Of a stretch of DNA of 64,000 bases, positions 9,301 to 63,805 are shown piece after piece. A program made the position numbers and the translations under genes. Numbering within the stretch: the first letter of the stretch is position 1; every line of letters begins with the position of its first letter. Origin of the DNA: Salminus brasiliensis (taxonomy: Eukaryota; Chordata; Actinopteri; Characiformes; Bryconidae); contig NC_132878.1 in the NCBI RefSeq assembly GCF_030463535.1, positions 39,747,554 through 39,811,553 on the forward strand. Direction: 5' to 3'. The notes under the pieces are model-generated. The model ran no database searches and had not been told where the DNA came from. It saw only the letters and a program-made list of their open reading frames with translations.

Positions 9301-12300
9301 TGATGTTGTTTACAGTCTCTCTATTATTGGCATTGTTGTAGTGCTAAGCACTGAGAGATAAACATAATGTCATAAAAACCACCCATAGACTAAATAGTCT
9401 GTTCATGTAATTTAATCCTATGCATTTATGTGATTACAAATTAGACAATAACGTATCTAAACTGCTTTAATAATGTGTTTGTAATGGCTGTGTGTTGCTG
9501 TGTGTGTGTGTTTGTTATAGACATAGATGAATGTGCATTAGCTGCAGTAACTGGTCTGCAAGCCTGCGGTAAAGGGGCGATGTGTAAGAATAGCCCCGGG
9601 TCCTTTTCCTGCCACTGTCCAGCAGGATTTGTCCTGGCAATTGATGGACACAACTGTATTGGTGAGTTCTTGACTTTGTAATATGCCTCTGGCTCTATGT
9701 ATGTTCGCAGCTGGCGGCAGTGAATGTGGGACATTATATAAAGTTGTTCACTATACATGTTTCCTTATATTCTGCAGATGTTGATGAGTGTAGTTATGAA
9801 GAGAGCTGTCGGAGGGAGCTTGGAAATATGTGTGTGAACACAGAGGGCAGCTACAAATGTGTGTGTCAGACTGGCTTCAGAGAAGACAAGGTGGCTTGCG
9901 TGGGTGAGTTTGTGTGTGTGCAAGAGGCCGCGTGTGTATGTGCATTTGCGTACGTGGGTGTGTGAGAGAGATGGATGAGACCAGTCTCATCAGTCTTTAT
10001 CAGTTCTATTACAGTATAAACCTTTTGTGTATCATATGTGTAGACATGTGTAATATCCTGTACTATGCAGAACCTTTTGGGCACCCAAGGACATAATTTA
10101 AAATTTACCATTTCTTTTATTACGAGAGCTTTTACTGTAGAATCTCCAGATCTCATTAGAACAGATGCAAGTAAACATAAATACAGATTCTGTCATTCTG
10201 TAGAAAGTAGTTGAGCTAGTCTGAAGTACAAAGATTGGTTTCAGGTATTTCTGGACACCCCCAGTCGACGTCCATTTCAGCTCCTGAGGAGTTTCCAGAC
10301 CCCCTAAGAGGTCAAGCAAGTGGTGTAATCCATATGCTGTTGCCTTCATAGGATATTTTGGACTGATATGATTCAACACCAATGAGGGTATTTCTTTTGG
10401 AAGTTCCAGATACGTGTAGAATCTATTCCAAGACAAAGCTTTGCATGATGTCTTTTTGGCTGTTTGACAGCTTTGAATGGTCCAGTATCTTACATCACAC
10501 CTTTTCGCAACATTTCAGGTATAAGTTGTATGTATAACTGCAGTAATCAGGCTGTTCTAAGCCTTTGAGAGAAACTATTTACAACAAATAGTATTTTCTC
10601 ATGATTACTAACCCACTCTTTGTTTTAGCCTGTGCCCTTTTGTTGTGTTAATGTAATTACTTTCTTGCTCTTGTCTCCTCTTGTCTGTGTCCTATCTGCT
10701 CTGTTACCCCCTAGCTTCTCCCGCTGACCCCCTCACCCTGACTCCACACACCTTTTTGGGTATTGAAATGCCTCTCTGGCTTTTATAATCTCCTTTTGTC
10801 CCCCTCCCCCCTCAACCTCATACTCATGCTTCCTCCACCTTGTTCTTAGGGGAGATCCCCAAATATGCCTTCTTCAGACTGTTGAAAAGCTTCACTGAAT
10901 TAAAAAATACAGGTTAATAGGTTACTCTACAGTAATGCTTCAGACTTCATTCTGCTAGTGACCATCAAGAATCTTAAATCATATGATAGCATCAAGCTAA
11001 CGGCACGCATGGCTTTTGTTGTTTAAACATGGATGTTTGAAGTTGTCACTTTTTCTGCACAAACGCTAACTGTGTGCTGCCCACGGCTGATTTGAACTGT
11101 CTTATTCCATCTGTGCACTCTTTCTGTCTCTCTCTCCATCTCTCGCATACTGTTTTTCCTTTAGATGCTCTGTGTCCTGGCTTCCGCACGTGTAAAGGTA
11201 CTGAAATGGAACATCAGAAAAGATTTTTAAAAAGACTTTGTGACATGAAGATGTTGCACCCTAAAGTATACATTCAGTAATGACTTATATTTCCAAAACT
11301 CAGTATGGGTTTCATGGTAAATCTTTTTACTCCATAGATGTGGATGAGTGTGTTGAGCTGGATGGTGTGTGTACTAATCAAGGAGAGTGTGAGAACACAT
11401 TGGGGAGCTACAAGTGTGTGTGCTCACGTGGATATCGTGGCAATGGAACGCATTGTATGGGTGAGAAACAAATTTTACCTTTATTTTATGTATAAGATAT
11501 ATATGTACTCCCATCAGATGAAATTATGTACACTGACAGAGCTGTGTAAATGTTTTTTTTGTGGTGGTGTAAAGATGTGAATGAGTGTGTCTCAGGAGTT
11601 CACAGCTGTGATGTGAATGCTCGCTGTGGGAACGTCATGGGCTCATATTTCTGCCAGTGCCACCAGGGCTACAGTGGTGATGGCCACTCCTGCTACGGTC
11701 AGTTCAGTCCCTACAGCATTTGTATCTGTATTAGATTTATCTAAGAATGTACTATCATTTTAAAGTCTGGTCTTTGTCTGATCTGTCTTAAATTGTACAA
11801 GATGCTACTCTAGAGATTATTAGGTGAGATTATTATTTGAGATTCTACAGGTATGGAGTCAGAACTGTTAACAGAGCTAGTGATAGCAGCCTTACAGAAA
11901 TCACAAAAAATGATGAATAAAGCCCCATTCTGAAGAGCTTAGTTTTACATGGGGAGGTGGGGTAATGTAATTATCAGTCATTTTAATCCAGTCAGAATGA
12001 ACCATGTCAGTCATTTTTATGGACTGCGTGCTCCAGCGTAGGTAAATACTCTGCAGTATTTTACCTTCTGTGAAATGAGCTGTAAAAATAACCTCAGGTT
12101 ATATTCATCCCGAGCAAACCAACATGTGGGTAAATATTCTATTCCATTCAAATCCAGAAGACGAGCCAAGGACTTATGGATGTTATGAACATGTAGCTGC
12201 TAATTTATTTATTTTAAATATGATGGTTTATAAGATTAGTAATCAATAAGTATTTTGGAGGTGACAGCACGACGTAAATCTAATAGCCATTTCTGCCAAG

Positions 12301-13443
12301 ATTTCTTATCCTGTGTGAATCAGTCATAAAGTTTACAGACGCCCTGTAGTAAAAGTACATTACCCCATCTCCCCATGTAACACTGATGTAACACTGATCA
12401 CTAAACACATTGTTTTGTGATAGTTTAAAGTTGGGAATTTAAACCTATTTTTAAAAAAGATACATACACGGTGTTGTAAAGCCAAATACTACTTCAGGTT
12501 CCCTCAACAATAGTAATCCTGTTTACTTTAATGCAAAGACAAAACCTGATAGTAGACATGGCTGTCAGTTATGATTTTATTGTTATTGAGCGTCACTCAT
12601 GACATTGCATGACAGTGACGTATTAATCATTATCTGTGGTGTTTTGTCTTCGTCTTTGTTGGTGGTGGTGGGCTTTCCTGCTATGGCGACAGATGTGGAC
12701 GAGTGTGCGGTGAACAATGGCCTTTGTGAGCACAGCTGTGCTAACCAGCTTGGCACTTACAGCTGCATGTGCAATGAGGGATACACACTGAAAGAGGACC
12801 TACACAAGTGCACAGGTACACACATGCATAAACACACACACACACACACCTCCCTTTTTCTTCTGATATTGCCACATATTTTGCTGCAAGACAGGCTAAA
12901 TGCATCCCTGTCAGAACAACTCATTCACTATACATTTAACATTATGTTTTCCTTCTCTCTCTCTGCAGACGTGGATGAGTGTGTGAGCAGTAATGGAACG
13001 TGTGAGCAGATGTGCACCAACACACCAGGGTCCTTCCTCTGCTCCTGTCTGCAGGGATATCAGCTGCACATAGACAGATACAGCTGTGTGGGTTAGTATA
13101 TGCTAAGACTTAAAATATGTTAAAAAGATACACCCCAAACAAAAATGACCAAAACATTGCCATTGCAGAGTAGGCAAACATAGCTGTATGCTGTTATGGA
13201 TTATTAGAAAATGTGTACCCAAAGATACTGTGAACAGTGTTGGCCTTGGCACAAATGGTTGCATTCACAGACTGTGATCACAGATTGCTCACAATTGTGT
13301 GTGTGATTCTTTATGTCCTTTTTTTAGGTGAAGTGTCTCTAGAAATCTAGGAAACCCAAAATATTTTGTATTTGTGTTAGCATTAGGACAGGGTTTCAAT
13401 ATAACAATTGTCTAGTTTAACAGCATAACTTCTTCTTACGTGC

Positions 13444-13474
<31 letters not shown>

Positions 13475-16400
13475 GGCCTGTCTGTGTCTGTGCATGTTCA
13501 GACATAGATGAATGTAAGTTGCAGAATGGGGGCTGCTCTCATGGCTGTACAAACACACCAGGAGGATACATATGTCACTGCCCTCCTCCTCTACTGCTGG
13601 ATCACCTCAACACCACCTGCGTCAGTAGGTTACACTCATATAAGTGTATTGTTAATAGTCTAATCAAAAAAGAAGTAATTAATGAAATTGTGTGTTCCTT
13701 TACTAATAAGTGTATGCCTGTATTTGTGTGTATATGCCTGTGTGTGTGTGCATATACAATCTCTTCTTATAGACATCACTTCCTGTGCCTTGCGGAATGG
13801 GGGCTGTGATCATGCATGTTCTCTGGGTGCTGAGGGACGTGTTCAGTGCAGCTGCAGAGAAGGCTGGGAGTTGGCCAAGGACCAAAGAACCTGCCTCGGT
13901 AACATCACACAACCACCATATTTACACTCCTGAACACACGCTCTAGCCCACACACTTGTTATAGCTAATTAGTAGTTTGGTTATTATCTGAGGAGTTTAG
14001 TCTGATGCATTAGGTCCAGGGCTGCTGCGATTAGTCATTTTTAGGTCTCTAAAATATTAATATTAAGTTCAAATAACACGTTTTCCCATTTTGTATTAGC
14101 CTTTAAACACACTGGTTAATAAAACTATGTTTTTGTCTGCCTGCTACCTTGGAAATTCCAGTGAATACTAAGAGAAAAAGTTAAGTCTAGAATTTGGGCT
14201 TTTACATTGATTGATGGTGTCAGTGTGTGTTCGTACACTTTGGGCTTGACTGGATATAAACCATATCTAATTACTCTAATTACTCAGGATTTTAAGCACA
14301 GTTCTTTGTGTAGGAAATAACATAAATACACTAGATCACATACACTTTGATGAGGGGTTATAAATACCCCACTGCACTGCTGACCTTCACACTGGAGTTC
14401 TCAGTTTAAACCTGCAGTGTTAGATTTTCATAGGGTAAAACTTTATTCACTGTTTTGTCAAAATAAAAGAAAATCTTTATGCTATAATTAATTAATTAAC
14501 ATTAATCGATAGACTAATTGATTAGTCTCTAGTTGCTGCAATAATTGTTGGAAAAACAGGAAAAGGTGTGTGTAATGAATTGATTTTGTTCTGCAGAAGA
14601 ACAATAACTAACTCAAGTTCACATTCTAATCATGATCAAATATATTCTTTTCCACTTACAAACACCAGTGTGCTGATGGTTAAAATATATCCACAGACAT
14701 CAGTTTCCACACTTTGGACATGCTTCTTTCCAATTGTTTCACTGATCCGTTCAAATCACATTACACCATCCTTTTTTATCTCTAGATATGTTAACTTGCT
14801 ATTAGAAGTTCAATTCACTTTTTACTGCAGTCTGATTACAATCTTCAATGTTTTTTATAATGTACTTCATAATTACTTAGTAACTAATTAAGATACTTGT
14901 AATAATTATATAACTTTCAACTTCAAAGCATTAAAAATATATATATTTCTAGGCACAGACCTCATCTCATTAAGTTAGTCACTGCCATAAATGATATCAC
15001 ATTACACTTGCCCCTTCTCCCTCTCTCTCTTTGTAGATGAGGATGAGTGTGTAAGATTCAATGGAGGATGTGAGCAGGTGTGTGTGAATCATGCGGGCAG
15101 TTTTAACTGTACCTGCAGACCAGGGTTTGAACCTCGCACTGATGACCCCACCAAATGCCAGCGTAAGTTTCCCTTATCCAGGTGTATTCTAACTGCAGCT
15201 CTACTTGACTGCAGCCTTGGCTAATGCAGTTTAAGGCCACATTCTTTCTTCTTTTCTCTTGCTTGGCTTTACTCTGCTTTACTCTGATTTCCTCAGCGGT
15301 TTGTGAACCTAGCTGCCAGAATTACGGAGTGTGTATCGCTCCTAACACCTGTGAATGTCCTGCTGGCTACCCAGGACCTGGATGCTCAGGTACAGCATAT
15401 TGAAGGGTGGTGGTTTCTTCTTCCAAGCAATGTAATCTACCAGCTGGTGTTTAGTATTTGAGTCTTGATTCTTTGGTGCTTTTATTTTGTACTACAAAGT
15501 TAATGTAGCAAATAAGCATCGAATATCGAATGTCAAATGTCACGATGGTCTAGGCTGATTGACTTTATCCAGGGCTATATGTGTCACAGCTATGTGTTCG
15601 CCACCCTGTGCTCATGGAGGAACCTGCATGCGATGGAACACCTGTCTCTGCCCTCTTGGCTGGACTGGAGAGGGTTGTCACACAGGTATCACGCCCCATA
15701 TGTTCAAAACACACACACACAGGCACATATACACACACACAGTCTTAAAATGTGTTTTGTTTGTTTTTTTTCTTTTTACCAGCTGTGTGTGAGTTACCTT
15801 GCGGAAATGGTGGACGGTGTATAGCTCCTAACACCTGCCAGTGTCCTTCTGATTATGCTGGTCCACAGTGCCTCACTCGTGAGTTTATGCATGTGTTTTT
15901 GTTCAAAGTAGGAATGGGAGATAAATTAATGCAGATGTTATCGTTATATTTGGAGTGCAAAGCAGTATTACTACACATAGAGTTGTGGTCAGAGGTTCAC
16001 ATACACTCGTCCTGGACATTAATCATCATAGCAGTTATTTCAGTTATTTTTTTAACTGTCCTTTTTCTGGAACAGAATGCACGTACAACATATATCTTTA
16101 ATGGAAAAAACAAGAATGTGGTGCCCAAATTTTATATTTTGGGAAGTTTTCTGATATCAACACAGGTTCAAAAGTATACAGACACCCACTCATATTATGA
16201 ATTCAGTGCTGAGAGCTCCAAAATGTCTTTAAACTGGCCAAAACCTCTTAACTTCCTGCCAGTACTCATGCTTGACTACAGCTGGTAGCTGTAGTCAGAG
16301 GGTTTGTTTGACAGAATTGACCAACACAAGTCCAAGGAGCTCAATGCAGATCTGAGAAGGATGATCATAGTTTTACACTCTTGTAGTTATTCATAAACAT

Positions 16401-16897
16401 GTGCAGATTCCAGCATCATCTGTTTAAACAATTTTATGCAAGTGCAATTTATTAGGAGGTGTAACCACTTTGCCATGATCTGAAAGAAAACCCAAACTGT
16501 CACCCTCAACGTCATGAACAACCAATGAACCTCCAAGGTATAGGACAGCCATGAGCTGGAGCTGCTGGAACACCATCATTACTGTCTACAGACAGTAAAA
16601 AGCATCTGCTCCAAAATCCACAACTACAGCTGAGCACACTGTACAACAAAAATGTCTCTTGGGATGTTTTGCTAACTCAGAAAGTCTTCAATATAACCTC
16701 AAACCATCAGCTAGATGATTGAAACTTCCAACAGGACAGTGACCCCAAACACACATCAAAGGTGGCTGTGTAATGGATGAAGCAGGCTAACACAAAGATT
16801 TAAAAGTGCCTAAAAGTCAGGTCTGTGCCAGGAAACCAACCAATTTAATGGAACATTTAACCAAGTATTAGGTGTGCTGTGTGTATAGTTTTGATCT

Positions 16898-16965
<68 letters not shown>

Positions 16966-19900
16966 ACAGGAGTTCTGTATATATATATGTTACTGTTATG
17001 GGAGAATTTCTGTCAACTTCACTTTGTCTAACTGAATGTGTGTCTGTTTAGCTCTTTGCACTCCTCCATGTCTGAATGGTGGAAGGTGTGTGGATGTTAA
17101 CACCTGCAGCTGTGTTGGAGCCTGGCAAGGAGCTCGCTGTCAGATAGGTACACACACACACACACACACACTCACGCAGTCATGTGGATATATGCACAAA
17201 GTAGTTCTAGATCAGTGTTTAATCCTGCTTTTAGTCACCTATAGTTTTTTGGCTGTTCCATTCCCTAACATACTTGATTCAGCTTATGAACGGCTTGATA
17301 ATCAGTAGAAGAGCTGGATCAGGTGTGTTGGAGCAGCGGGGTTCCCACAGATCTCTTATACAGTCTACTACTATACGATTTCTAAAATTCTTATGTAATT
17401 AAATTCTGAGATGATGTCTAAAGTAGGGATGCACTGATCCAGCCTTTTCAGTTCTGATTCCGATACAGATACATAAACTTCGATCTGATACTATTGTTGA
17501 ATTAATAAACCTTATACCTCACCATATGGGAGAGACTTAAGGAATCAGGATTGACTTAAACATTACTTTACTAACTTTGTAAAACAAAATATAACAAATT
17601 AACACATAGATATAACTGTACTTAATTGATATTTATTTGTCACTAAAATAAACAAAAAGTGCAGGACCTTGACACAGCATTCAAAAAAAACTTTTTTAAA
17701 AATATTAATATAAATAACTATCTTCACTTTGTCAAACACACAAACATTAATCAGTCTTAATCTAAATCAATCTTACTCTAAATATTTTGCGTAACTCAAA
17801 ATAAAATCTAGCAGCTGAACTTGGGAATAAATAAGTAACTCTTCAAACATAGAAGCAGCAATCAACAATTGCATGTAAACATTTAGTGCAGTCTCACACC
17901 AACAAATTAAAGTGAAAGGATTGGTTCCATAGATCGGCCTAATTATCCGATTCCCGATCTAGCTAATTTTGTTAGTATCGGTAACTAGCACATGCATATT
18001 AATGGCCAAAGCTCAGCACCAGGCTGAGTGCCAAGTTAGCCATGCTACACCAAAAAAAACTAAAATCTTAAAATCAGACTACAGACTGCAAGAAAAAAAA
18101 AAAGTTATCTCTGGTAGATCAGTACAAAAACAAAACATGAATAAACATATTTAATGATCAGTTTTTATTAATACATGTAACAACAACTTTTCATGCATAG
18201 TTAAAATCAGTGGTAAGATGAAGAAAAATGTCAATGAAAAATCAAACACATATTCAGGGAGTCCTGATGTTCAGTAAACTGTATGTATGCTATGCTTATC
18301 TTTTTGGATACTTTCTCCTTTTCTAATCTCATTGACTGAGGTTAAAGCCTTTCTAGTAATGCATTTTAACGAAAGTCAAATTCTTCTCAATTACATTTGC
18401 TTTGCTTGCTATGATGCTCCATCCAGGCTCATAATAAATGTTTAAATATGTTGTTTACTAAGCTGAGTGAGTGTAAGTGCACAATTTGTTTCGTCCGTAT
18501 GACTAAGTATCATAGAAAACGTATAATTGAATGCACATTGGTTATTGGTAAAATTTGTCATCATTTGCCCAGGTATTATTTTTGTCTGGGACAGTGCTGC
18601 GTTATGAATCACTAACAGCACATGCAAGTATGGAAACAGAATGTGGTAGTCACCCAAAGAAAAAACACACAGGTCATGCTCATAAGCAAATAAGCAAAAA
18701 AAAACAACACTAGGATTGAGGTGATAATAAAAAAAATTGACTTCTTTGTTTGTACTTTGTGTTTCCTCAGAACCTGTGCAGTGTGTTAATCCCTGTAAGA
18801 ATGGGGGAGTATGTGTGGGACTCAACAGGTGCCAGTGCATCAGTGGCTTTATAGGGGGGCTCTGTGAAACAGGTGTGTGTATATGTGTCCTGATCTCTAT
18901 GCAACATCTTTTAGGTGGGCTTGACTACCCTCCATGCTTTGTGATTTAATATGTATTTAGGTTTTTAATCATTATTTCTTAACCTGCTTAATATCTCAAT
19001 ATACTTTTCACTATTTCTTGAGTGGGAATGTGACATCTGTATGTGTATGTGTTTGTGTGTGAGTAGCTGTCACTACTCCCTGTGTGCCTCCCTGCCGGCA
19101 CGGTGCCATGTGCAGCCCCCATAACACCTGCACTTGCCCAACAGGGACCAGCGGCCTGCGTTGTGAGAAACTGTATGTACTGTCCACACATATGTTCTCT
19201 CTCACACACACACAGAACATATATATACAGTGTGTAAGAAATAGAGATACAGACACTGACAGACTGGTTAACAACCTCTCCTTTCTCTCTCTCTTTTTCT
19301 CTCTCTCCCCCAGGACATGTCCGGTGGTGACCACAGTGCTCAGTATGGCCCGAGCAGTACGTAAAGGATTTAGAGAGAGTTATGTAGATCGTTGTGGACC
19401 TCTGGGTGTCCAGCTCTGCACCAAGTACAGGTAATTTAATATGGTGCCAATTACCTGATCAGCCAGTCATGTGGCAGCAGTATGTGTATAATCAGCAGCT
19501 TTATCTAATGTTCTCATCAACCATCAGAATAGGAAAACAAAGTGATCTAAGTCATTTTGAGCATGGCATGATTGTTTGTGTCAGACTGGCACTGGTTACA
19601 CTTTCACTTCAGTCAAGAAAGCTGAACAGAAAGCTGAGGCTGCAGTGGACACAGGATCACTAAGACTGGACAGATGAAGACTGGATAAACGTAGCCTGGT
19701 CTGATGCATGAATCCATGGACCCAACAAGTCTTATGTCAACTTATGTCACCACTGGTACAGGTGGTGTAATTCGAGCCCATTAATTAAAAAAAATAATAA
19801 TAATAATTTGAGATAATGGAAGATTTGTAGCACGAAAATGTTGCCTTATTCATATTTTCTGATTTCAAACATATGTCAGTTTATTTCAGAAAAAATGGTT

Positions 19901-21169: not shown

Positions 21170-24100
21170 ATGTCAGCTGTGACAAAGCGCTCCCTTGCCC
21201 CTTCAGCAGAGGAACAGTTACAGAAACGAGCAGACGCCATCAGACTGCAAGTCACACAGGTGAGAATCACACACACTCACTTCTAGAGTGCTTCAGGTCG
21301 AAAGATTCTGTGGTTCTTGATTACGCCTTTAAAGGATGATTAAAGTGTATAATTTCATGTTAAACTGAAATCACTTAACTGCTGCAGTGGCAAACTGGTG
21401 AGATTTCTGAGAGGTAATCTGTTTAAATATAAATGTAGAAAATATAAAAGTTTAAATATAAATATAGAAATTTAACTAAAGGTTTTCAAGGATCAACCCT
21501 CTGTTTTTTGGGCTGATAGGGATTGTGTAATGTTTGATGTCTTGTTTTGGTAAATGTGTTTTTACCCCCAGGGCTTTGGGACGGTTTGTCCTGAGCACTG
21601 ACCTTAAAAGCCTTTGTTACTGATTGCTGCTAATGTCATTAACCCCTTTTTATAAGCACATAGTTCATTGATTAACCCAGTAAATACTTTATATTATGGG
21701 GGGAAATAAAGAATAAGGTCATCATTAGGTGATATAATTCTCCAGTTATAACAAATGCAGTATATGATGCCATACTGTACCAGAAAATGCAAAATTAAAA
21801 CAGTCTAATGATCTCAGTTTCATTGGTCATTATTAATGCTGTGTGCGGGTTTGTGTTTGTATATCCAAAGGGAATCAGCAAACCCTTTAAGAAGGTAATT
21901 GATGTCAGTTCTGGTGACATACACTCTACAGGAATGAAGCCAATTACGTTTGTCAGACAGGTAGACACTGCCTCTTGTCTAAACACCACAAAGCCATTTA
22001 TATCCATTTGTTTAATGAAACTGCTGATTTGGAAACGTACGCAATAGATTCTGCTCGTTGTCTTCAATGCCAGTGTTCTGTTCTGTTCTGTTCTGTGTGT
22101 GTGTGTGTGTCTGATTTTCAGGTCCTGGCAGGATGCCTATGTCCTGATCTGTTGGACAGTGACACACTTCCTCATGATTCCCAGCTGAGGGCCCGAAAGT
22201 TGTTGGAACACTGTGATGGAGGGAGTGTTGGTGAGGAATGTTTAATGGGTGTGAAGGAGTGTGAGGTATTTTTTTTAAGATAGTGAATGAATGACCCCTC
22301 GTTATGTGTGTGAGGTCACTGGTGAACGCCAACCTTCCTCAGAGAAGCTACACGTAACTCTTCAAACTAAACAATGCAATGGATTATGGGTATTCCACGT
22401 CTGTTTAGTGTACATTGTTTGTTCACCATATATATTACAGTGCATTGTGGGATTGTTAGAGTGCACTGAACATTTAGCACTGCATTTTTTAGACCCCACT
22501 ACTAAATGGCAGAACTATGTAGTGCATAGGGCCCAGTTTCCACTTTCTCATACACTATCCCATCACCTTCACACTTAGCCATACTCATACACACATTCCA
22601 CAACATCACTGCGCATGATAGTGTAGAGAGACAATTATGGCCAAAAGTGTTGGCACCGATAACATTGTTCCAAAAAATTAAAAGTATTTCTCCCAGAAAA
22701 TTATTGTAATTACACATGTTTTGTTATACACATGTTCATTTCCTTTGTGTGTATTGGAACAACATAAAAAACAGAGCGTTCAATGGGATTTTGCCCTACA
22801 TTGCAACCCAAAATCCTTTGGTAATCTACAGATTTCATGATACCTTGTACATGGTCAAGGCGCCCAGTGCCAGTGGCAGCAAAACAACCTCAAAGCATCT
22901 TTGAACCCCCACCATATCTGACTGTAGGCCCTGTGTTCTTTTCTTTGTAGGTCTCATTCAGGTTTCGCTAAACAGTAGAATGATGTGCTTTACAAAAAGC
23001 TCTATCTTGGTCTCATCTGTCCACAAGATGTTTTCCCATAAGGATTTTGGCTTACTCATGTAAGAGTACTAGAGTCTAGCTTTTTATGTCTTTGTGTTAG
23101 CCGTGGGGTCCTACTGGGTCTCTTACCATAGTGATTTATTTCATTCAAATTTCATTCAAACGGGTAGTTCTCTCTGACACAGATGCAACCTGAGGCTGCA
23201 GGACAACTTGAATTTTTTTGGAACTTGATTGGGGCTGCTTATCCACCGGATGATCCTACATTGCAACCTTTCATCGATTTTTCTCTTCCCTCCACATCCA
23301 GGGAGATTAGCTAAGATTTCTGGAGATGGAGGTGTAACCTTGAGATAAATGTGTTCATATTTTTCCACAATTTTGGTTCTCAAGTCCTCAGACAGTTCTT
23401 CTCTTTCTGTTCTCCATGCTTAGAGTGGCACACACAGACACACAATGCAAAGACTGAGTCAACTTCCCTCCTTTTTATATGGTGTCAGATGTAATTTTAA
23501 TACTGAAAAAAAAAAACACACACACTTTCGGCCATGATTACATGACTGTGTGTATTGTGTGTATTTGTTGATGGAAAGAATGTTATACTGAGTAATAGTG
23601 GGCTAAAAAAATGGGCTGACTTTTTTAATATCTCTGGACCTAAATCTTAATTTCCAAATACCCTTTAAGGTTCCAGTTATCGTTTCAGGTGCCTATGCTG
23701 AATCAAGTGGAATGGCTTATGTGAAGAGCACTGTGGCGAAGTTTATTTCTGCACGGGACGGTGGTCTGTCTTCCAATCCAGCACACATCTTCATCGCTTC
23801 TGGCTCCCTGAGAGCTATAACAGTACGTTAAAGAAACATCTAAGCATGCTGACTGAAACCAGGATGTGGAAACAGTGCAAAGAACAGTGAAAAAGAAAAA
23901 CAAGCAACGTTTTTCACACAACGTCACTGTGTGCACAATTATTATTATTAGTCTTATTTTTGAGGATTATTTTTATTAATCACCAACTACAGTGCTCTCT
24001 GTTAATCTAAAATATTAATAGACCTCAAACATAAATATTGAGGAAGGAAAAGTGAGGTTTTGGCTTTCTTAGGAGAATATCTATATGTGCACAATAATTG

Positions 24101-27100
24101 GGCAACAATTATTGTGCAGAATTATTATGCAGCTAAATGAAAAACACACATTTTCCCAACTCACTTTTTTTATCTTTACCTGTTCAAGTGAGAATTATAA
24201 ACAAAAAAATCTAAACTTTCCAATAAACATTTCTGACATATAAAAAAATCTGTGACCGATATAGCCACCCTGTCAGTTTCTTGATCTGTTGATAATGGAC
24301 CTTTTGTGCAGCCGTTGGCAGTTAATTTGCGTCTTTTTTCTCAACACATGACTATTTTCAACAAAATGTTTGATGGTTCTGTGATCACACCCCAATATCT
24401 TAGCAATTTCAAGAGGGCTGCATCCCTCTGAGAGACTTTTGGTCATTTTTGACTTTCAGAGTCAGTTAAATCTCTTTTTGGCTCATTTTGCCTAAAGAAA
24501 AAAACTGCCTAATAATAGTGCACACCTTGATATAGGATGTTGCTCTCCTTAGGCCACGCCCTCCCCATTACACAGACACACATCACCTGCTATGCTTAAA
24601 TCCATTAAGCATTCAAGTTTATACTCACTTGCCTAATAATTGTACACACAGTGTATTATAACTACAGCATATTGTTTAACGTGGTTAACAGATAGTATAG
24701 TGTTATTGCTTCATTGTGGCTAACGATCAGGGATGGGATTAAAAAATTAAGTATTTATTTGTTTTTGTTTCCTGACTGCAACCTCTATCCTCTCCTAATT
24801 GAAGGTAGTTCTAAAGCTGCTGGATCAAGGTGAGGGTGCACATCGAACTGGAGTCATGATTCCTTTGCCATTTCCCTACACCCTGCCTCGTGTGCTGGAG
24901 AGGGTGGGCTCTGTGCCTTTGCCTTATAGTCTGACGGAGGAGGCAGGGTGGAGGATAGAGAAGAAGGAGCTTCACAGAGCTATACAGGCCTCTAAAGGCC
25001 ACTGCTGGCCACGAGCTATTTACATCAGTAACCCAGGCAACCCTACAGGTACCCCCTGTACACATACATACGTGGTTGTAAATATTCATACATAAATACT
25101 GATACAGAATGTGAGTATTTGTCCTGATCTGTTGGATAGGTCATGTCCAGAGCAGAGAGTCCATTCAGGAAGTGATTGAGTTTGCTGCACAGAACAATCT
25201 GTTTTTATTGGTTGATGAGGTGAGATTTTATTTTATTTTTTTTACTGTATGAGAGAACTACAGACTAATCAGCATTATTATGTGCACCTGGTGATGCAAA
25301 TACACTAGTAACACCCGAGCAACCACATGGGGTATCACAGAAACCATTTGGCAACACACTAGCAACCACTAAGCAAATCAGTAGAAACCACCTGGAAAAC
25401 CTTACCCACAGCCATTGCAACTACCTCAAATGCCATGGCAACCATCTGAAATACATTACCAACTGCCCATCAACCACCTGGAACACCTTAGATGCCACCT
25501 AGCTACCACATGGCATGCCATAGCCACCACATAGAAACACCTTAGCAACCATTTAAAATAGTTAAGCAACTGCCATAGCAATCAACGACTAGGAATTACA
25601 TAGCAACCACCAAGCAATACTGTAGCAACCACTAGTTAACACCATAGCAATCACCTAGCAACCCTATAGCAACCACCTATCGGCCAATTATCAACATCAA
25701 AGCAACCACCTGCAATGATTTGTCTTCTTCAGGAAATGCACTTTTCTAATTATTGATGCCAATGTGCACATTCACACACATGCCTGATGTCTATCTGCTG
25801 ACAGGTTGTTGCTTAAAATATGGACAATATACTTCACAGTTAAAATAAATCTAATAGTCAGAATTAAGGGACACATTTACACACACACTTTTCTCTCCTC
25901 TCCTCTCTGTTCATGTGCTAGGTAAACCAGGACACTGTTTTTGGGATGGGCAGTGAGTTTGTGTCCTATAAGAAGGTCCTAGCTGAGATGGGTCCTCCTT
26001 ACTCTCACACTGTGCAACTGGCCTCTGTCCACTCCCTCTCCAACGGTATCCTAGGAGAGTAAGTTTTTACTCAAGACACCCAAGTTAAACAATTAGGTTT
26101 TGTGTATTTGGCAAAGCGTGGGTGGTCTTCAACACTGACCAACTCTGTGGTCTATAAGCAGGTTGGAGCTGGTTAATGTTGAAGAAATGCATCAAAAAAC
26201 AAGAACTGGAAAATGCTGACCCAGCATTTGAAAAAGATGCATAAAAATGTGATTTCCTTTGTGGTTGTAAATTTGTGTGTGTGTCCTGCTAATGCATTTG
26301 TGATTCAGGTGTGGTCTAAGGGCTGGCTATATAGAGCTGGTCAATGTTGATGAACATGTGATGTTATTTGCTGAGACATTGCTCTGTGGGGACATAAGCA
26401 CGCCTATTACTGGTCAGATTGCCCTCGATGTCATGGCTGACCCACCAAGACCTGGAGATCCATCATACTGTTTATACAGACAGGTACTTAAACAGGCAAT
26501 TACTTATTATTATGATCACTGTATTTTCTTTGTGTATACATGTGTGTGTGTGTGTGTATGTGTGTGTTACAGGAAGTGGAATCCAGAAGAAACACACTAC
26601 GGCGTAATATGCACAGAAGTGCAGAGTTTTTTAACAGTCTGCCCGGTTTCCACTGTCCTCCAGTACAGAGCGGAGTTTTTATCTATCCACATCTAACGCT
26701 CTTACCCACGGCACTGACCCACGCACAGGTACACATATTCACAAAAAAAGCTTTCATTTGATTTAAATATGTGCATTAGCAGTTTACTTCTTGTGGCCAG
26801 AACTACGTTCAGGTCATTTTAATGTCAAAATGATATACACATTTTTATATAATATAAAGATATCAATGGATACATTGATGTTTTTACGAGATATTTGACA
26901 TAAATGGTATTATCTGCCCCCAAGGTAAAAATGCGTTCTGCCTTTTTGCCTAAAAGCATGCATTCTTTGGGGGAATACAAGCTACTGTCCCAATACTTTT
27001 TTTTCAAATGGTGCAGTTATGTCTAGTTTGTCAGTAATAACTGAAAATAGGATGAACTGTATGAGTTACCAAAATATTTAAGCCCAGACAATCACAAGTG

Positions 27101-27698
27101 CGCATTACAATATACAGTCTGTACTTTGCTCTAAACATATACAACTGTTCTGACACTGGCACAAATCAGAACCGTCAGGTATGGGTGGGACTTTCAGAGA
27201 GGGCACTGTCTACTAATCCCGCAAAGGTTTTTTTTACCATGATGCGGAAACTGTGAAACTGTGTGAATGTCACTGAATGCCAGTCCCAAAAATTGGTCCG
27301 GCCCCCTTGACATTGGGCTGTAAGTACTATGCCCAGTCCCCTCAGTTTGCCATCCATTCTCTAGGGCCTTGGTGTGGAGGCAGGGCTGTGGTACTGTGAA
27401 AGGTTGTTAGAGGAGGAAGGTGTGTGTGTTGGTGTAAACGAGTGTATGGGGAAAGCAGTGACTCAAAGCTGTCCTCCAGGAAGCAACTGGCATTTAAGGT
27501 AATATATATATATGAGGGAGCCTGTTTAGACTCTTATATATACCTAAACTCCTCATATCTGTAATAAGAATGTTCTACATCTATTTCTAACCTTATTTTA
27601 TTATTTTCAGGATGTGTGTCCTGATGCCACCTGACGCTCTGAAGGAGGTTCTATGCCGTCTGCAAGCTTTTCACTGTCGTTTTCTCAAAGGATTCTAA
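21170..27698 (+). CDS. Alanine-aminotransferase-like protein lacking the PLP lysine (probable pseudoenzyme)
   Basis: Eleven exons encode about 478 residues: 21170-21259, 21871-21960, 22122-22230, 23689-23822, 24805-25048, 25140-25219, 25922-26058, 26309-26483, 26573-26728, 27365-27498 and 27611-27698. All phases close. The family (GPT/GPT2, fold type I) normally converts alanine and 2-oxoglutarate to pyruvate and glutamate. Homology is collinear over the whole length: KPITFVRQ, RTGVMIPLP, ISNPGNPTGHVQSRESI, LLVDEV, VLAEMGPPYS, GECGLRAGY and a C-terminal WHLRM. The motif around the internal-aldimine lysine, normally STSKG, reads SLSNG (Asn at residue 290). DEVY reads DEVN (251), and the GASD phosphate/cofactor loop reads GSLR. 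The NPGNPTG loop, the phosphate-side Arg in GLRAG and the substrate Arg in HLRM remain. No mitochondrial presequence is evident and the protein starts 40-60 residues later than GPT2, so it may be cytosolic. Transamination is very unlikely; function unknown. Confidence 0.93.
22630..23541 (-). mobile_element. Internally deleted Tc1-like transposon
   Basis: The ends ACAATTATGGCCAAAAGTGT and ACACTTTCGGCCATGATTAC are inverted repeats about 910 bases apart. On the minus strand, around 22780-22930, remnants of a transposase are visible (a GGG-rich motif before a FEVV-like stretch). The frame is broken throughout. It sits in the GPT-like intron between 22230 and 23689. Confidence 0.6.
24086..24648. 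mobile_element. Non-autonomous DNA transposon, 20-bp TIRs
   Basis: Left TGTGCACAATAATTGGGCAA and right TTGCCTAATAATTGTACACA are near-perfect inverted repeats. A degraded second copy of the terminal motif lies about 25 bases inside the left end. There is no coding content. It lies in the GPT-like intron before exon 24805. Confidence 0.65.
25300..25720. repeat. Degenerate minisatellite, GCAACCAC-type units
   Basis: About twenty imperfect repeats of a unit like TAGCAACCACCTAGCAAC fill most of the GPT-like intron between 25219 and 25922. Unit length varies and there are no regular spacers, so it is a decayed tandem repeat. Confidence 0.75.
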
Positions 27699-27947: not shown

Positions 27948-27953
27948 AATAAA
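27948..27953 (+). promoter_or_regulatory. Probable polyadenylation signal of the GPT-like gene
   Basis: AATAAA about 250 bases after the stop codon at 27696-27698, with no earlier canonical signal in between. Confidence 0.6.
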
Positions 27954-30337: not shown

Positions 30338-48195
<17,858 letters not shown>

Positions 48196-55230: not shown

Positions 55231-58200
55231 CTAGGACAGAGACCTGGTGCTAAAAGAAGTTCTGCTGAAGCTGAAGCTGCTGTATCTGGACGAAGATGAA
55301 GTTGAGAAAGTGTGGTCCACGCTGCCTCTGCGGGAGCCGCTCCGGGAGCCTGGAGCGGAACTCGGTTGTGTGTTATAGGGGCTGCTGATACCATGCGAGG
55401 ATGTGGCGGCTGCAGGAAGCATGCGTACCCCTGTTTTCTCTTCCAACATACAGGCATCCATGGCTTCCTTGTAGGAAATCCTCAGCTTAGTCTTGGGGCA
55501 GGTCAGTGCCTTGGGGTGGTGCCGCGTTTCCAGAAGCTTCTGCGCTGCTCTTCCATCCAGCCATCCCAAGTGTAAAGACTCATCAAGAGTGAGTTTTCGG
55601 CCACGTTCTGGATCATACAAGCCTCCGGTCAAAAACTGATATTCAAGGAAGCGCTGCCCAGCCTCATATGGCAGCCATTTTTCCTTTACCGCTTCAGCTG
55701 CTGACATTTTCTTCTTGGTCTTTAAATCCTCAAAGCCAAGGTAGGCCTTCTGAGCTGGTTTCAGTCGGTTAGCCAAGTCGTCATCGATTATGCCAAGCCG
55801 GGTAGCTTCCTGAACGGAGATGCGACCACCATTTTCTGGGTTTACAATGCCGCCAGTGCAGGCTTGAGCCTCTAGCAGTCTCTGAGCCGTGATGGAGTCC
55901 ACAAGACCGCGCCTCACTGCTTGATGGATACTGACCTTCTCCAACTTTTCTGTGTCAAAGATGGCCCCAACTGGAGTCTGCTCATCAGACTCTCCAGCTG
56001 TTGTCAATGTAATGGACATGCTAGAAATGTGCTTCAGGGAGTTTGGAGAAGAAGGACGTGGCTGCAAGGGAGTACTTCTGACAGTTGACACGGTTTCACT
56101 TTTGATTACTGTTGGCTGAGAGGAAAATGAGGAGGAGGAGGACGAGGAGGAGGTGGCGGCGCTGGAGGGCTTTTTCATTAGTTTGGTCTTACTGTTAATG
56201 ACTTCAACAAACTGTGTAAGAGTAATGGCCCCTGAGCGGTACCTGCTAAAGGTGTCTTGGTCAATGACCCCTTTATCAAGCAGCTCTTGCAAGTCATACT
56301 GAAGGCCTGTTTTCCGATCAGTGATGACCAGTTTGCTTGTGCCATCTGAGGCAGTAAGAGTCATCTCCTCCCATTCACTCTCTTGTTTGGAAAGCTCTAG
56401 ATAAGTTTCATAATCAATCAGCTGCTTGTCATAGGCTTCACGTACGGTCATCTCCTTATTGGTATCTGGATCTACGATCACAACCCTTGTTTTCCTTGTA
56501 GTGTTCTTCTGGGTGGTTTCGGTCTTGCCCTTATCATAAAGTGGTAGAAGCACAAGGCCAGTTTTCTCATCTGTAGTACAGCGACTCTTCAGCTGCAGGT
56601 AGGTCAGATTGTCCTGGGTGTTAGGATCAAAGAAGCCCTTTGTGTCATCACCCTCATCTTTCAGAATTTGGTTCATTTCTTTACCAAAGTAGCCCCTCTG
56701 ATAGGCCACATCCACATCAATTCGGTGGCTTTGTTTGGGGTCAATGATGCCACCGCTGGCTATCTGGGCTTCCAGCAGGCGAATACCATGGCCTTTCTCA
56801 ATCAGACCCCGTTCAATTGCTTCAAAGAGAGAAATGATCTTGTCTGTCCCAGGATCTTTATATCCAGTAACTGCTCTCTCTGCAGAAAGGAGCTTGTCTT
56901 TAAACTCCACCCCCACCAGGTGCTTTTTACAGGCCTCCTCCACTGTGTAGTACTGGTTGTTAACAGGGTCTATCATGAAGCCTGAAGCTGCTTGGGCCTC
57001 CAGAAGCTCCATTGTGGTGCCAGGCCGCAGAAGTCCTTCTTTCATAGCTTGGTAAACAGGCAAGACACGGTTGTTGGCTTCATCGTAGACCCCAGCAATG
57101 CAGGTGGATCCCCTCAGGTAGGCTCTTAGTCTATGTTCGATGTCCTGGCTAGTCAGCTTGCCTTCTTTTAGCTGAACAATGTCTGAAGGCTCCAACAACT
57201 TGGCCCAGACTAGATCAGACACAGAAACCTTTCCTCGTAAGCCCTGTACCATCATTTGCTCTTGGGCTGGAAGCAGGAGCAAGCCCGTGTTAGCATCAAC
57301 TTTGCATTGCCTCTTCAGGGTGACATAGCTAGCACTGATCCCTGTCTCAGGGTCCGTGTAGCAGTTTGGTTTCGCATTCAGGGCTTGATAAAGCTTCTCA
57401 TCAATCAGACCACGGTCCATAGCGACATCTTTAGGGAGATATACACTAAGAATAGGGTCAATTATCCCTCCCGCTGCCTCCTGTGCTTGCAAAAGACGAA
57501 TAGCTGCATCTTCATTTATCAGGCCCTTTCCAATGGCTTGGCTGGCTGATAGAAGTTTGGTTGTGTTTGGATCCCGGAATCCAATGCAGGCAGCCTCCGC
57601 AGTCAGCAGTTGCTCCTTATCCTCTTCATCCAGAAGTCCACTGAGATACGCCTCTTCGACAGTCATCCTCGCATTAGCTCTGGGATCAAGTATGTGTCCT
57701 GTGGCTGCTTGAGCCTCCAACAGTTTTATGGTGCTCTCTTTTGAGATCAAGTGGTCTCTCTTGGCCTCTGTGATTGTTAAGTTTCCTGCAGGCCCAGCAG
57801 CTATTCCTGCAATGGCTCCTGTGCCCTTGAGATTTAGCTTAATATCAACAGCCACATCTTCGACAGTCTTCTGACCTTTGACCAAGTGGTCCAATGTGGT
57901 TTTGTCGATTACACCACAGTCATGCAGTTGCTGAGCTGTGACCTTTTTGCGGACACCATCAAATACTAGAGTGGATGGATCGATGACAGGCTGGTCAGTC
58001 TGTGTGTAACTATTTGCAGCATCCGTTCTCTGCTGTAGTTTCTGCAAATCCATTTGCAAGGAATCCCTCAGAGTCTGCAGATCTGTGCGCTCCCGCTCCA
58101 ATGCCTGAAGCTGGAGTCTATAGCGCTCCTCCACCTCCTGTAATCGGGCCTGCAGGCGCTCTATCTCTGTTCTCAACGAGTTGCGCTCTCCTTCTAGCAC

Positions 58201-61200
58201 TCTGCACTGCGAGTTATGCTTCTGCACACGCTCCTCCTGGGTCTCGAATTGCTTTTTCCAGTGGCTGAACTCTTTCTTGAGCCTTTCATTCTCCTCCTGC
58301 AGCTGGGCTTTCAGACGTGTTTCTGACTCTAGGGATAGTTTGATACGGTTGAGCTCTCCTTCAATCTTTTGCATGCGAGTCAGATCCTGTTCCATTGTAT
58401 TTATCTTCCTGACGAGGGCATCTCGGTCTTGCTGTAAATTAGTACACTGAGATTGTGAAGCCTCGATCAAAGATGAAGTCTGCAGAGAAGAGAAAGAGAA
58501 GATCATTTAGGGGTCAATGGATTTACATACAATCAGTAACATAGAAAAAACTAACAGAGGGTGCACTTAAAATGGGAATTAAGCTTTCTAAGAATCCTCA
58601 AGTGCAAGAATTAATCATGCAATATTATGTGATAAAAGGGCAATCAATAGCATTCAGCACAACATGGAAAAGCATGCAGCAAGCTAAAGCTAAACATACA
58701 CAGCGTTTGAGTGAAACTATAGTCTACAATAGTCCCAGACACTCTACAGAGAATTAATACCTCGCTAGCTTGTTTCTGTATATTCTGAATCTCCAGTCGT
58801 AGTTTTTCTCTCTCCTGTGAGAGTTGCTGGACAAGGCTGTCATGCTCGGCTCTGGCACTCAGGCTGTTTTGAAGCTGTTGCTGAAGAGCTTTAATCTGGG
58901 AGCTCATCTCTTCATCTTCATGCCGCCTGCCTTGCTGCAGCTCTTCGTGTTTCAGACGCAAGGCCCGTAGCTCCTCCTCCAGGTGGAGGCGCTCTTTGGT
59001 CAGATTCTCTGTGTGCTTCTTCAGACGCTCAGTGTCAGCGGTCACTTCATTTAGAGCTCGGGTTTTCTCCTCCATGCTCCGATGCAGGGCTTCATATCGT
59101 TGGTTGGCTTCACGAACCCGACCCTGCTCTTGCACAAGCTGCAGCCTCAAAGCTTTCATTTCAGCTTCAAGCGTGGCCAGACGCTGACTGGAGACACCAT
59201 GCTCCTTTAGATTACGGTCAAGGGCCTCCTTCAGCCGCCTGCACTCCTCGTCTGCTTGTTTGGCCTCATTGCTGGCCTCCTCCTGGTTCTTCCGCAAAGT
59301 CGTGAAAGTGGAGGTGTACTCACGCATGGCCTGGCTAGTCTTCTCAAGCTGAGCTTCGATTCTCCTGCGCTTAGCACTCTCCTCTTGGGCCACACGCCCT
59401 TGCTGCTCTAGCTCCCCCTCCAGCTGTTTCAGCTCCTTCTGGAGTTCTTGAATTTTTGCCTGAAGCCGTGTGATGTTCTGCTCTGCCCGGCTCCTCTCGT
59501 TTGCTTGGGTTTCCAGCTCGACACGGAGGACCGTTACCTCTTTCTGTGAGGAGCGAAGCTGGATTAGCTCCTGACTGCAGGTTGTGTGTTTAGCATTTAG
59601 GGACGCTAATTCCTTTTCCAGGTGACCTGCCTGGGCTTCCACAGTTCTTCTCTTGCGTAACTCTTCCTCAAGCGAGTGTTTAAGGCTGGAAATTTCACTG
59701 CTTTTTTCCTTCAGCTCCCTAATGAAGCTCTCTTGCATCTCCTTGCTTTTGTCATCATCTGTATTTTTTTCACTGAGAAGCCGCTTTATTTGAGCCTCTA
59801 ATTCACTCTTCTTCCTGGCTTCTGCTGTCCTTTCTGACGATTGCTGCTGCAGCTGCTCTTCAACACGTCTCCTTTGAACCTGTTCCTCACTGAGGGTCAG
59901 CCGCAGCCTTTTCAACTCTTCCTGAAATTCCTTACATTCCCCCTCTAGCCTGTCAAGCTCCACACGCATGGATGAGGAGTCATCCTCTCGCTGCTGCGAA
60001 AGCTTCTGAATGTTGGTCTGTGTTACCAGGATCTGGGACTCATAGACCTGTTTCACCTCCCTCATTTCCATGCTGTGTTGCTGCCTTACCTTAGCCAGCT
60101 CCATCTGTGTCTCCTTTAAGTTCTGCACCTCCTCCTCCAGCTGTCTTCTCAGACGCTCAACCTCCCGGGTGCGATCTGCCACCGTCTTCTCTAGCTCAAT
60201 CTTGGCCCAATTGGCCCCTTCAAGCTGTCTTTGTCCTTTCCGCATGGCCTCCTCGTGTTCTTCCTGTTGACTGGTGTACCGCTCCTCCACAATCTTCTTG
60301 CTTGCCCTCTCCTTCTCCAAAAGCAGCTTCACACGTTGCAGCTCCTCCATTAGCTCCTGTAGATGGCTTTGAGAGGAGCTCAGGCTCTCCTGTGCTGCGC
60401 TACACTGCATCGCCTGGCTCCTTTTGACCTCCTCCAGCGAGAGACGTTGTTCATGAGATTCACTCAACTGAAGTTGGGACCGTGAGAGCGCCTCCTTAAG
60501 TGAGGTATTCTTAGCATCACGGTCTTCAATGTCTGCTCTTAAAAGCTTTAACTCCTCTTCGAGCAGATCTATCCTGGTGTTTCGCATCTATGTATTCAAG
60601 ACAGTGAAAATTAATGTAAATATAAAATTATATAAATACATTTTTAAATACAGGTACGAGGTCAAAAGAATGTTCTAGTCCTAGGTTCTAGCAAAGTAAA
60701 TTTGTCTACCTTCAATTGCTCCAAGTTTTTCAGTGAGTCGCCAAGATACTTGCAGTAATCACTTGAACGTGTAAGCAACTCCAAGTAGCGGGCGTGCAAG
60801 GAGGAAAGCTGAGGCACAAGCATAAAATTTGCAACCAAACAGACAAGACCCAAAAAATAAATAAATAAAAATAGGAAAAAAAAAAAGTGCTAGACTTTGA
60901 GAGTGTATACTTATGTACCTCCTGTGTCACTGCTGTAGATGGCGATTGTAGCACAGTTCTTTTAATAGGAATATTAAGCAGAGTCTCTAGCCCAGCACTG
61001 TAAGATGCCAACTCCACTTCATAGCCCTATACATTTGCACGTAAAAAAAAAATCCCAGTCATGTATTCATCACTATTTCAAACTTTTCATGACAGTAAAG
61101 TTTCTTCAATAAAATACCTAATCAAAACCACTGACCATGATCAGTGCAAGTTGGCACAGATTTAAATATATGGGTGCTTATTATTTTTGTACCTTAATGG

Positions 61201-63805
61201 AATTCACACATGCATCACCGTCTCTATGCACAGCCTCCACGGTCTCCCTCTTTGCCATGATCTCAGAATTCAGTGCCTAAACAACACATTCAAAGTTACC
61301 AAACAATGCTACTTGATATATACAGTTCACTGACTGCTTCAATTATAGTCTGGCCAGATACAGTGGGGGGAAAAAAAGTATTTAGTCAGTCACCAATTGT
61401 GCAAGTTCTCCCACTTAAAAAGATGAGAGAGGCCTGTAATTGACATCATAGGTAGACCTCAACTATGAGAAACAAAATGAGAAAAAAAAAAATTCAGAAA
61501 ATCACATTGTCGGAGAATTTATTTGCAAATAATGGTGGAAAATAAGTATTTGGTCAATAACAAAAGTTTCTCAATACTTTGTTATATATCCTTTGTTGGC
61601 AATGACAGAGGTCAAACATTTTCTGTAAGTCTTCACAAGGTTGGCACACACCATTGCTGGTATGTTGGCCCATTCCTCCATGCAGATCTCCTCTAGATCA
61701 GTGATGTTTTAGGGCTGTTGGCAGGCAACACAGACTTTCAACTCCTTCCAAGGGTTTTCTATGGGGTTGAGATCAGGAGACTGACTAGGCCACTCCAGGA
61801 CCTTGAAATGCTTCTTACAAAGCCATCCCTTTGTTGCCCTGGCAGTGTGCTTGGGATCATTGTCATGCTGAAAGACCCAGCCACGTTTCATCTTCAATGC
61901 CCTTGCTGATGGAAGGAGGTTTGCACTCAGAATCTCACAATACATGGCCCCATTCATTCTTTCATGTACACGGACCAGTCGTCCTAGTCCCTTTGCAGAG
62001 CAACAGCCCCAAAGCATGATGTTGCCACCCCCATGCTTCACAGTTGGTATATGTACGGATATGTACTGGCTTAAGCAGGGGAACACGTCTGGCACTGCAA
62101 GATCTGAGTCCCTGGTGGCGTAGTGTGTTACTGACGGTAGCCTTTGTAACGTTGGTCCCAGCTTTCTGCAGGTCATTCACTAGGTCCCCCCGTGTGGTTC
62201 TGGGATTTTTGCTCACTGTTCTTGTGATCATTTTGACCCCACGGGCTGAGATCTTGCATGGAGCCCCTGATCGAGGGAGATTAGCAGTGGTCTTGTAGGT
62301 CTCCCATTTTCTGATTATTGCTCCCACAGTAGATTTCTTCACACCAAGCTGCTTGCCTATTGCAGATTCAGCCTGGTGCAGGTCTACAATTTTATTTCTG
62401 GTGTCATTCGACAGCTCTTTGGTCTTCACCATAGTGGAGTTTGGAGTGTGACTGTTTGAGGTTGTGGGCAGGTGTCTTTTATACTGTTAACGAGTTCAAA
62501 CAGGTGCCATATAATGAGTAATGAGTGGAGGACAGAGAAGCCTCTTAAAGAAGTTACAGGTCTGTGACAGCCAGAAATCTTGCTTGTTTGTAGGTGACCA
62601 AATACTTATTTTCCACCATTATTTGCAAGTAAATTCTTTAAAAATCAGACAATGTGATTTTTTTTCTCATTTTGTCTCTCATAGTTGAGGTCTACCTATG
62701 ATGTCAATTACAGGCCTCTCTCATTTTTTTAAGCGGGAGAACTTGCACAATTGGTGACTGACTAAATACTTTTTTCCCCCCACTGTAGCGGTGATTTGAC
62801 TGCAATAAACTGGGAGTTTACATACTTTCTGCTGGTTAAGGAGTCTGGTGAGGACTGTGATGTCATCTGTCTTGGAGGTCTGCTGTGCATCTACACGGCC
62901 TCTAGTCTCATCAATCCAGGTACCGAAAGTCGAGCTAGAATGCAGATACTGCAGTAGCTGCTGTAGATATGAGTCCAGATCACTCAATCTGGCAGAAAGG
63001 AAAAAAAAAAACAAACAAAAATATATAGAATGTGCTCTCTCCATCAGACTGCATAGCTCTTTAAAAAAAGGCTGAAAGCAAAATGGATATTAAAAAGGGA
63101 GTGTCTTACCTGCTGTTAATCTGGGTTTGAATGCGTTTGCAACGCTCAGACAGCAGCTTCGCATGCTCAGCGTATTGGCATACCTCAACATCACATTTTT
63201 GACAGGGATGATAAATTTGTTCATTGTACTGATTGACCTTGTTTAATTCAGCATGCAGTGAAGCCAACACACTCTCTTTCTGCTCAAGCTCTGCCCGCAT
63301 AATCTATAAGACAAGACAAAAGTATCATAAATTTGTTAAATATAGGAATCATCCTAAACACACACAAGTCATTTAAGAATAATTCAGATTTCATTTTCAA
63401 TACCCTCAGAGTGCTCTGGTATGCTTGGACTTCAGCTGGGTCCAGTGACGTGGTATCTTTCTCGGTGAGTCGAGCTTCATAAACCTTCACCACATCCTCT
63501 GCCTGTAGTAAGGCCTGCAGCAGAGCCTTTATTGATTTGGACCTGATGGCAAAAGTGAAGGAGACTTTGACTTTTGTACAAACAAAGCAGCATTTGGAAA
63601 ACGGGCTTGCATGCATTTTTTTTTACCTTAATAGATAAGTGTTAGTGTGAGAGCCAAGCCTGTCCAGTCTCTGATTGATGAGGTCGAGTTGGCTGCGTAG
63701 AAACTGAGCTTTATCTGTGTCTGTCATGTCCTCTAGTTCTCCTTGCACTTGTTCCTTTAGCTTCAGAAACTGTGCCCTCAGTGTCTCCACATCCTTCTGC
63801 ACTGC
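55231..63805 (-). CDS. dsp: Desmoplakin, C-terminal part (5' end beyond window)
   Basis: Desmoplakin anchors intermediate filaments to desmosomes. Exons in transcription order are about 63805-63627, 63542-63404, 63303-63110, 62988-62826, 61276-61193, 61026-60919, 60808-60710, 60587-58761 and 58479-55231. They encode about 2,010 codons; human DSP has 2,871 residues. The first seven carry the end of the spectrin-repeat plakin domain (for example [38 protein letters not shown]). The 1,827-base exon is a heptad-rich coiled-coil rod. The last exon has 1,082 residues: the end of the rod, [20 protein letters not shown], three plakin-repeat domains rich in [14 protein letters not shown]-type repeats, and a Gly-Ser-Arg tail ([12 protein letters not shown]) ending in a Ser-rich stretch. 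That tail and the repeat order identify desmoplakin over plectin, epiplakin or envoplakin. The rod exon seems shorter than the human one. The first visible acceptor is ambiguous among three nearby AGs (63801-63806). Confidence 0.96.
61361..62785 (-). mobile_element. Tc1-like transposon in a dsp intron
   Basis: The element runs from CAGTGGGGGGAAAAAAAGTA to its inverted complement ending CCCCCCACTG, flanked by TA on both sides as expected for Tc1 insertion. The inverted repeats are about 200 bases long and closely matched, with shared text such as TTGACATCATAGGTAGACCT. The length, 1,425 bases, is below the usual 1.6 kb because of a deletion inside the transposase. It lies between dsp exons 61276 and 62826. 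Confidence 0.9.
61709..62432 (-). pseudogene. Deleted Tc1 transposase
   Basis: Starting at 62432 the frame begins [20 protein letters not shown] and carries the two helix-turn-helix DNA-binding segments (for example [18 protein letters not shown]). It then stops matching near 62040. The C-terminal part, in another frame (61709-62020), has [23 protein letters not shown] and [12 protein letters not shown]. About 60 residues between, including the WSDE region with the first catalytic Asp, are absent, and a stop interrupts the end at 61709. It cannot encode an active enzyme. Confidence 0.85.

Follow-up and report, generated by a model that had tools for sequence, protein, structure and literature searches.

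When a gene is encountered that plainly resembles an alanine aminotransferase (GPT, also known as ALT, which is central to amino-acid metabolism and in routine use as a marker of the liver), but in which the codon for the catalytic lysine has become a codon for asparagine, the question arises whether the gene is being kept for something other than transamination or whether it is on its way to being lost and simply remains unbroken. One such gene is found in a stretch of 64,000 nucleotides from Salminus brasiliensis (NC_132878.1, positions 39,747,554 to 39,811,553, forward strand), the whole of which is called the window here and within which positions are counted from the first letter. An earlier note on this DNA had pointed out the substitution and proposed a retained pseudoenzyme with a non-catalytic role.

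The gene and its cofactor site

The gene occupies 21170-27698 on the + strand of the window and has 11 exons totalling 1437 nt, encoding 478 aa + stop, with GT-AG borders at 10/10 introns and no internal stops. Its features are as follows.

21170..21259, + strand: exon 1, with the ATG (gene model)
21871..21960, + strand: exon 2 (gene model and spliced alignment)
22122..22230, + strand: exon 3 (gene model and spliced alignment)
23689..23822, + strand: exon 4; Tyr99 kept, phosphate cup Gly135-Ser136-Leu137 instead of Gly-Ala-Ser (model and alignment)
24805..25048, + strand: exon 5; FPYTL instead of the QYPLY motif, Asn220 kept (model and alignment)
25140..25219, + strand: exon 6; Asp248 kept (model and alignment)
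25922..26058, + strand: exon 7, which holds Asn251 and Asn290 (gene model)
25925..25927, + strand: codon 251, AAC (Asn) (alignment column)
26042..26044, + strand: codon 290, AAC (Asn), read in frame within exon 7, where the catalytic Lys would be expected (model and alignment)
26309..26483, + strand: exon 8; Arg299 kept (model and alignment)
26573..26728, + strand: exon 9 (gene model and spliced alignment)
27365..27498, + strand: exon 10; PGSGFG loop altered, 7 additional residues relative to aligned relatives shortly before the substrate Arg (model and alignment)
27611..27698, + strand: exon 11, with Arg450 and the stop (model and alignment)
27948..27953, + strand: AATAAA, a candidate polyadenylation signal 250 bases beyond the stop (sequence)

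Spliced alignment with human GPT2 (PDB entry 3ihj) as the query gave the identical 10 introns, bearing out the description in the earlier note of an intact gene with 11 exons, about 478 residues and no stop. When the window protein is searched against the PDB its top match is this same human GPT2 structure (E 1.1e-115, residues 19-476), to which it shows 41% (41.0%) identity over nearly the full length, and there is a match to Pfam PF00155 (E 2.5e-28). Exons 3-9 measure 109, 134, 244, 80, 137, 175 and 156 nt, sizes that are equal in the GPT genes of contigs C27 and C29 of the same genome; the GPT gene on contig C9 has an exon of 131 nt where the window gene has 134 (exon 4), and exon 10 is 134 nt in the window gene as against 113 in C9, C27 and C29. 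Near full-length homology and a common exon pattern together indicate that the gene is a member of the GPT family by descent. The intron ahead of exon 7 contains a 22-base tandem repeat of 3.6 copies (25600-25679).

In the alignment with human GPT2, which had been proposed as a check on the substitution, SLSNGILGECGLRAGY of the window protein pairs gap-free with STSKGYMGECGYRGGY, and Asn290 falls opposite the Lys of STSKGYMGECG with no gaps nearby. Lys is found in this column in 78/78 of the scored bacterial relatives (taken from the best 80 of 442) and in all six of the other proteins compared, namely those of C9, C29, C27 and C26, human GPT2 and the barley protein. The replacement of Lys by Asn at residue 290 is thus upheld by the gene model, by the 3ihj alignment and by the uniform presence of Lys in these relatives. 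The bacterial comparison was made by scanning prokaryote genomes with an alignment of the C29, C27 and barley proteins; of the best 80 relatives kept, 2/80 loci were dropped by a filter that called for an open frame of >=250 codons containing NPxNPTG. Since the scan took IPQYPLYS and [IV]INPGNPT as its seeds, conservation will tend to be overstated in the columns they cover; neither the Lys column nor that of Tyr251 belongs to a seed.

The statement that the rest of the gene is intact is correct for the frame, the introns and the stop, but two further changes at the cofactor site had gone unmentioned. At position 251 the window gene has Asn where every one of the 78 scored bacterial and six other relatives has Tyr; at position 137 it has Leu, C9 has Gln, and 78/78 scored bacterial relatives and the other five have Ser. 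Human GPT2 belongs to the same family and aligns almost throughout, but it has the catalytic Lys, the ring Tyr and the phosphate-cup Ser, all of which are lost in the window protein, where several motifs are also altered. Judged by their alignment columns, Asp248, Asn220, Ser289, Arg299, Arg450 and Tyr99 are retained. The column of the ring-stacking Tyr holds Pro165 according to the MAFFT alignment and Tyr166 according to the spliced alignment, in which the register is shifted.

As to what these residues do, PMC4094517, which concerns E. coli AlaA, describes Lys240 as bearing the PLP aldimine and transferring the proton, Tyr210 as hydrogen-bonded to O3' and N-zeta, Asn179 as also holding O3', Tyr129 as stacking on the PLP ring and Asp207 as holding N1; the phosphate is contacted by Ser105, Ser239, Arg248 and, from the other subunit, Tyr68, and the substrate carboxylate is bound by Arg378. 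If these roles are transferred by motif, rather than through an alignment of AlaA itself, the window protein would be without the Lys, the O3' Tyr and one phosphate Ser, and would keep the N1 Asp (Asp248) and the substrate-carboxylate Arg (Arg450). Given that the lysine responsible for the internal aldimine and the proton shuttle is gone, together with the tyrosine that tunes the Schiff base, ordinary transamination should, on chemical grounds, be lost.

Loss of transamination would leave room for a protein that binds PLP or PMP non-covalently, or that binds an amino acid or oxo acid, perhaps as a sensor or carrier, or for one that carries out some residual PLP- or PMP-dependent chemistry. This possibility, which overlaps with the reading of the gene as retained but transaminase-dead, draws on the presence of Asp248, Asn220, Ser289, Arg299 and Arg450, and on the fact that an aspartate aminotransferase in which Lys has been changed to Ala still binds PLP; it must contend with the changes of Ser137 to Leu and Tyr251 to Asn and with the disappearance of the QYPLY motif, and is regarded as rather unlikely. 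Another explanation would be that the assembly has a wrong base at codon 290, as AAC is only one base away from AAA or AAG. However, Tyr251 is also replaced by Asn, many further invariant columns have changed, and there is no stop or frameshift anywhere else in the gene, so that an error of this kind is very improbable indeed.

Paralogues and descent

A protein search of the organism's own genome (1.066 Gb in 103 contigs, best-scored candidates only) finds at least five loci of the GPT family, these being the window gene (on contig C1) and those on C9, C26, C27 and C29. Their modelled coding stretches contain no stops (C26, C27 and C29 being modelled without their N-terminal ends), and the other four genes all have Lys at the catalytic position. 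For C26 a GC donor splice site (L037, around 5585) had to be set by hand, and the model ends before the last exon. In both C26 and C27 the catalytic Lys is followed directly by Cys (SKCYMGEC), at a position that is Gly in 78/78 scored bacterial relatives. Identity to human GPT2 is 76.5% for C29, 71.0% for C27 and 72.3% for C26, but falls to 45.7% for C9, as against 41.0% for the window gene.

The gene on C9 (C9:6871716-6883485, that is, at 6.87-6.88 Mb of the contig) is accordingly divergent in its own right. Its top match in the PDB is also 3ihj (E 9.1e-140) and it keeps both Lys and Tyr, but it has GSQ for GAS, CYRSF for QYPLY and an altered PGSGFG loop, and it is possibly a transaminase with a different substrate. 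It is 49.0% identical to the window gene, and exon 7, the site of the lost Lys, ranks second of the 11 exons in this comparison (28/45). In a tree of 16 rows, including 8 bacterial rows picked by hand from the 78, these two form one clade with support 100/100, the tip branches being 1.5 for the window gene and 0.6 for C9; the tree program warns that the row of the window gene has a long branch and is uncertainly placed.

Evidence of another kind comes from the neighbouring genes, of which those downstream of the GPT gene are listed first.

~30339-47830, + strand: PHACTR-like gene (from motifs)
~55231-60587, - strand: desmoplakin-like gene
61709-62176, - strand: open frame of a DDE_3 transposase (from a domain match)

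The name PHACTR-like depends on first-exon and RPEL-type motifs. A second frame on the minus strand overlaps that of the transposase and reaches 62486, and it has a Tc1-like appearance. Upstream of the GPT gene there is a multi-EGF-domain gene (~9666-19434), and an exon of an elongation factor 1-beta/delta gene is found at 2482-2754. An Rfam scan over the whole window gave 0 matches.

On C9 the first exon of the PHACTR-like gene (37 residues) has a match at 5.78 Mb (62%, E 7.1e-9), and it is also on C9, at 0.21 Mb, that the desmoplakin-like region has its best match (61%). Since contig C9 thus bears paralogues of both PHACTR and desmoplakin in addition to its GPT gene, the window gene and that of C9 are probably duplication partners, even though the common neighbours are spread over some 6.7 Mb on C9 as against less than 40 kb in the window. 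A corresponding search with the EGF gene was uninformative as to a C1/C9 origin because EGF repeats match at many places. The two genes represent an old, divergent GPT lineage; the tree and these matches together suggest that they are a duplication pair, and the duplication in question was most likely that of the teleost genome. Within the pair Lys was kept by C9 and lost by the window copy, and C9 is to be regarded as a paralogue of the window gene rather than its orthologue.

It might also be proposed that the window gene is a fast-evolving fish orthologue of mammalian GPT1, a matter of descent that would be compatible with a loss of activity. Trees that place human GPT1 beside the window gene and C9 survive the AU test (p-AU 0.464), and so do those that add C26 and C27 to that group (p-AU 0.467), both with an unverified human GPT1 sequence; the elongation factor exon lies 18 kb upstream of the window gene. 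However, C26 and C27 are much closer to normal GPTs, at 71-72% identity to human GPT2, and the GPT gene of C27 itself has an elongation factor 1-beta/delta gene at a distance of ~0.8 Mb, a setting that resembles the human GPT1 region. It is on C27, not C9, that the elongation factor gene at the left of the window finds its closest relative (94% of 66 residues), while the window gene's own neighbours include PHACTR and desmoplakin. On balance such an orthology appears improbable.

Selection and the age of the intact frame

A one-ratio codon model gave omega 0.058. In a model with separate branches, fitted to 411 codons of the five paralogues, the window branch had an omega of 0.098, C9 one of 0.060, the stem of the window/C9 pair 0.077 and the rest 0.064. 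For the window branch omega=1 is rejected (LRT 78.7 with sister times tied, 17.6 untied), as is equality of omega between the window gene and C9 (LRT 8.8, p 0.003, tied times). The estimate of dN/dS that had been called for on this branch is therefore about 0.10, but it is approximate, as the branch times of window, C9 and stem all reached their upper bound of 8, meaning that synonymous sites are saturated. It must also be remembered that such an omega is an average over the branch, and for that reason cannot show selection after the loss of the Lys. Averaged in this way, the window gene has been under purifying selection and has changed faster than C9.

There are 164 columns that are invariant among C29, C27, C26, human GPT2 and barley (C26 being omitted past the end of its model), and 75 of these are changed in the window gene and 60 in C9. 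As 52 are changed in both, most of the departure from the invariant columns is common to the pair; the private changes number 23 for the window gene and 8 for C9. Judged by eye, the private losses of the window gene are not clearly enriched at cofactor contacts.

These figures would also be in keeping with a gene under relaxed selection that is becoming a pseudogene and is still unbroken, for which the 23 private losses against 8, the higher omega (0.098 against 0.060) and the longer tip branch (1.5 against 0.6) can all be cited. Against this, the frame, all 10 introns and the stop are intact, and omega=1 is rejected. The earlier note had relied on intactness as a sign of retention, for which it is by itself insufficient, since it does no more than set a bound on the length of any neutral interval. 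An estimate that counts stops, 40 splice bases and frameshifts, on the assumption of between 0 and 0.15 indels per substitution, indicates that a neutral interval beyond 0.011-0.032 substitutions/site would probably have damaged the gene. The chance that K290 and Y251 would both have changed during a damage-free neutral interval is, for a flat time prior, between 2e-4 (indel rate 0.10) and 1e-3 (rate 0). So low a chance makes it more likely that the cofactor chemistry went first, with the frame still maintained, although relaxed decay would also be compatible with it, and a relaxed gene heading for loss is considered unlikely without being far-fetched. As for the pseudoenzyme originally proposed, the intact gene and the lost Lys speak for it, as does a dN/dS that is far below 1 when averaged over the branch, an average that does not single out the period after the loss.

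Possible roles and known counterparts

A gene that is retained and transaminase-dead, whatever its role, is the reading to which we would give somewhat better than even credence. Among specific roles, that of a dimer partner is the one most readily entertained, albeit tentatively, and some fate or role other than those considered here seems distinctly unlikely. A scheme leading to a dimer partner would begin with duplication of a divergent GPT lineage to give the window copy and the C9 copy. C9 would have kept its lysine. From the window copy two residues would have gone, the Lys that serves as internal aldimine and proton shuttle and the Tyr by which the Schiff base is tuned, while its subunit would still have the overall fold, the Arg for the substrate carboxylate and the Tyr that extends into the cofactor site of its partner. 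The transaminase-dead subunit might then dimerise with, or regulate, a paralogue that has the Lys, C9 being the first candidate: it is the sister of the window gene in the tree and has 52 changed columns in common with it, but differs in keeping Lys and Tyr251 and in its slower evolution.

Parallels for parts of this scheme exist. The earlier note treated a non-catalytic role as apparently undescribed in the GPT family, but this overlooked yeast Alt2, an alanine aminotransferase paralogue that is reported to be catalytically inert (PMC3458083) and yet to form a Schiff base with PLP (PMC5960717). Alt2 resembles the window gene, as read here from its sequence, in being a retained inert GPT paralogue; it differs in arising from an independent duplication and in forming the Schiff base, and therefore presumably keeps its Lys. 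In serine palmitoyltransferase the LCB1/SPTLC1 subunit has no lysine for PLP and works beside a homologue in which that lysine is present (PMC3794620). Like the window protein it is a subunit of a PLP enzyme that has no PLP lysine, but it belongs to another enzyme family, and the window protein's partner is putative. With these precedents, dead GPT paralogues and Lys-less PLP subunits are both known kinds; a GPT without the Lys was not found in a narrow search of the open-access literature. The full combination, in which a non-catalytic GPT subunit that arose after a genome duplication and lost both Lys and ring Tyr regulates a Lys-bearing copy, so forming a counterpart among transaminases of the LCB1/LCB2 pair, is correspondingly speculative and on present evidence would be thought rather doubtful.

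In practical terms, a vertebrate GPT copy without the catalytic lysine, existing in one genome beside a duplicate that still bears it, would allow the conversion of a metabolic enzyme into a regulator to be examined in nature, and would caution that a GPT-like gene is not automatically an alanine aminotransferase.
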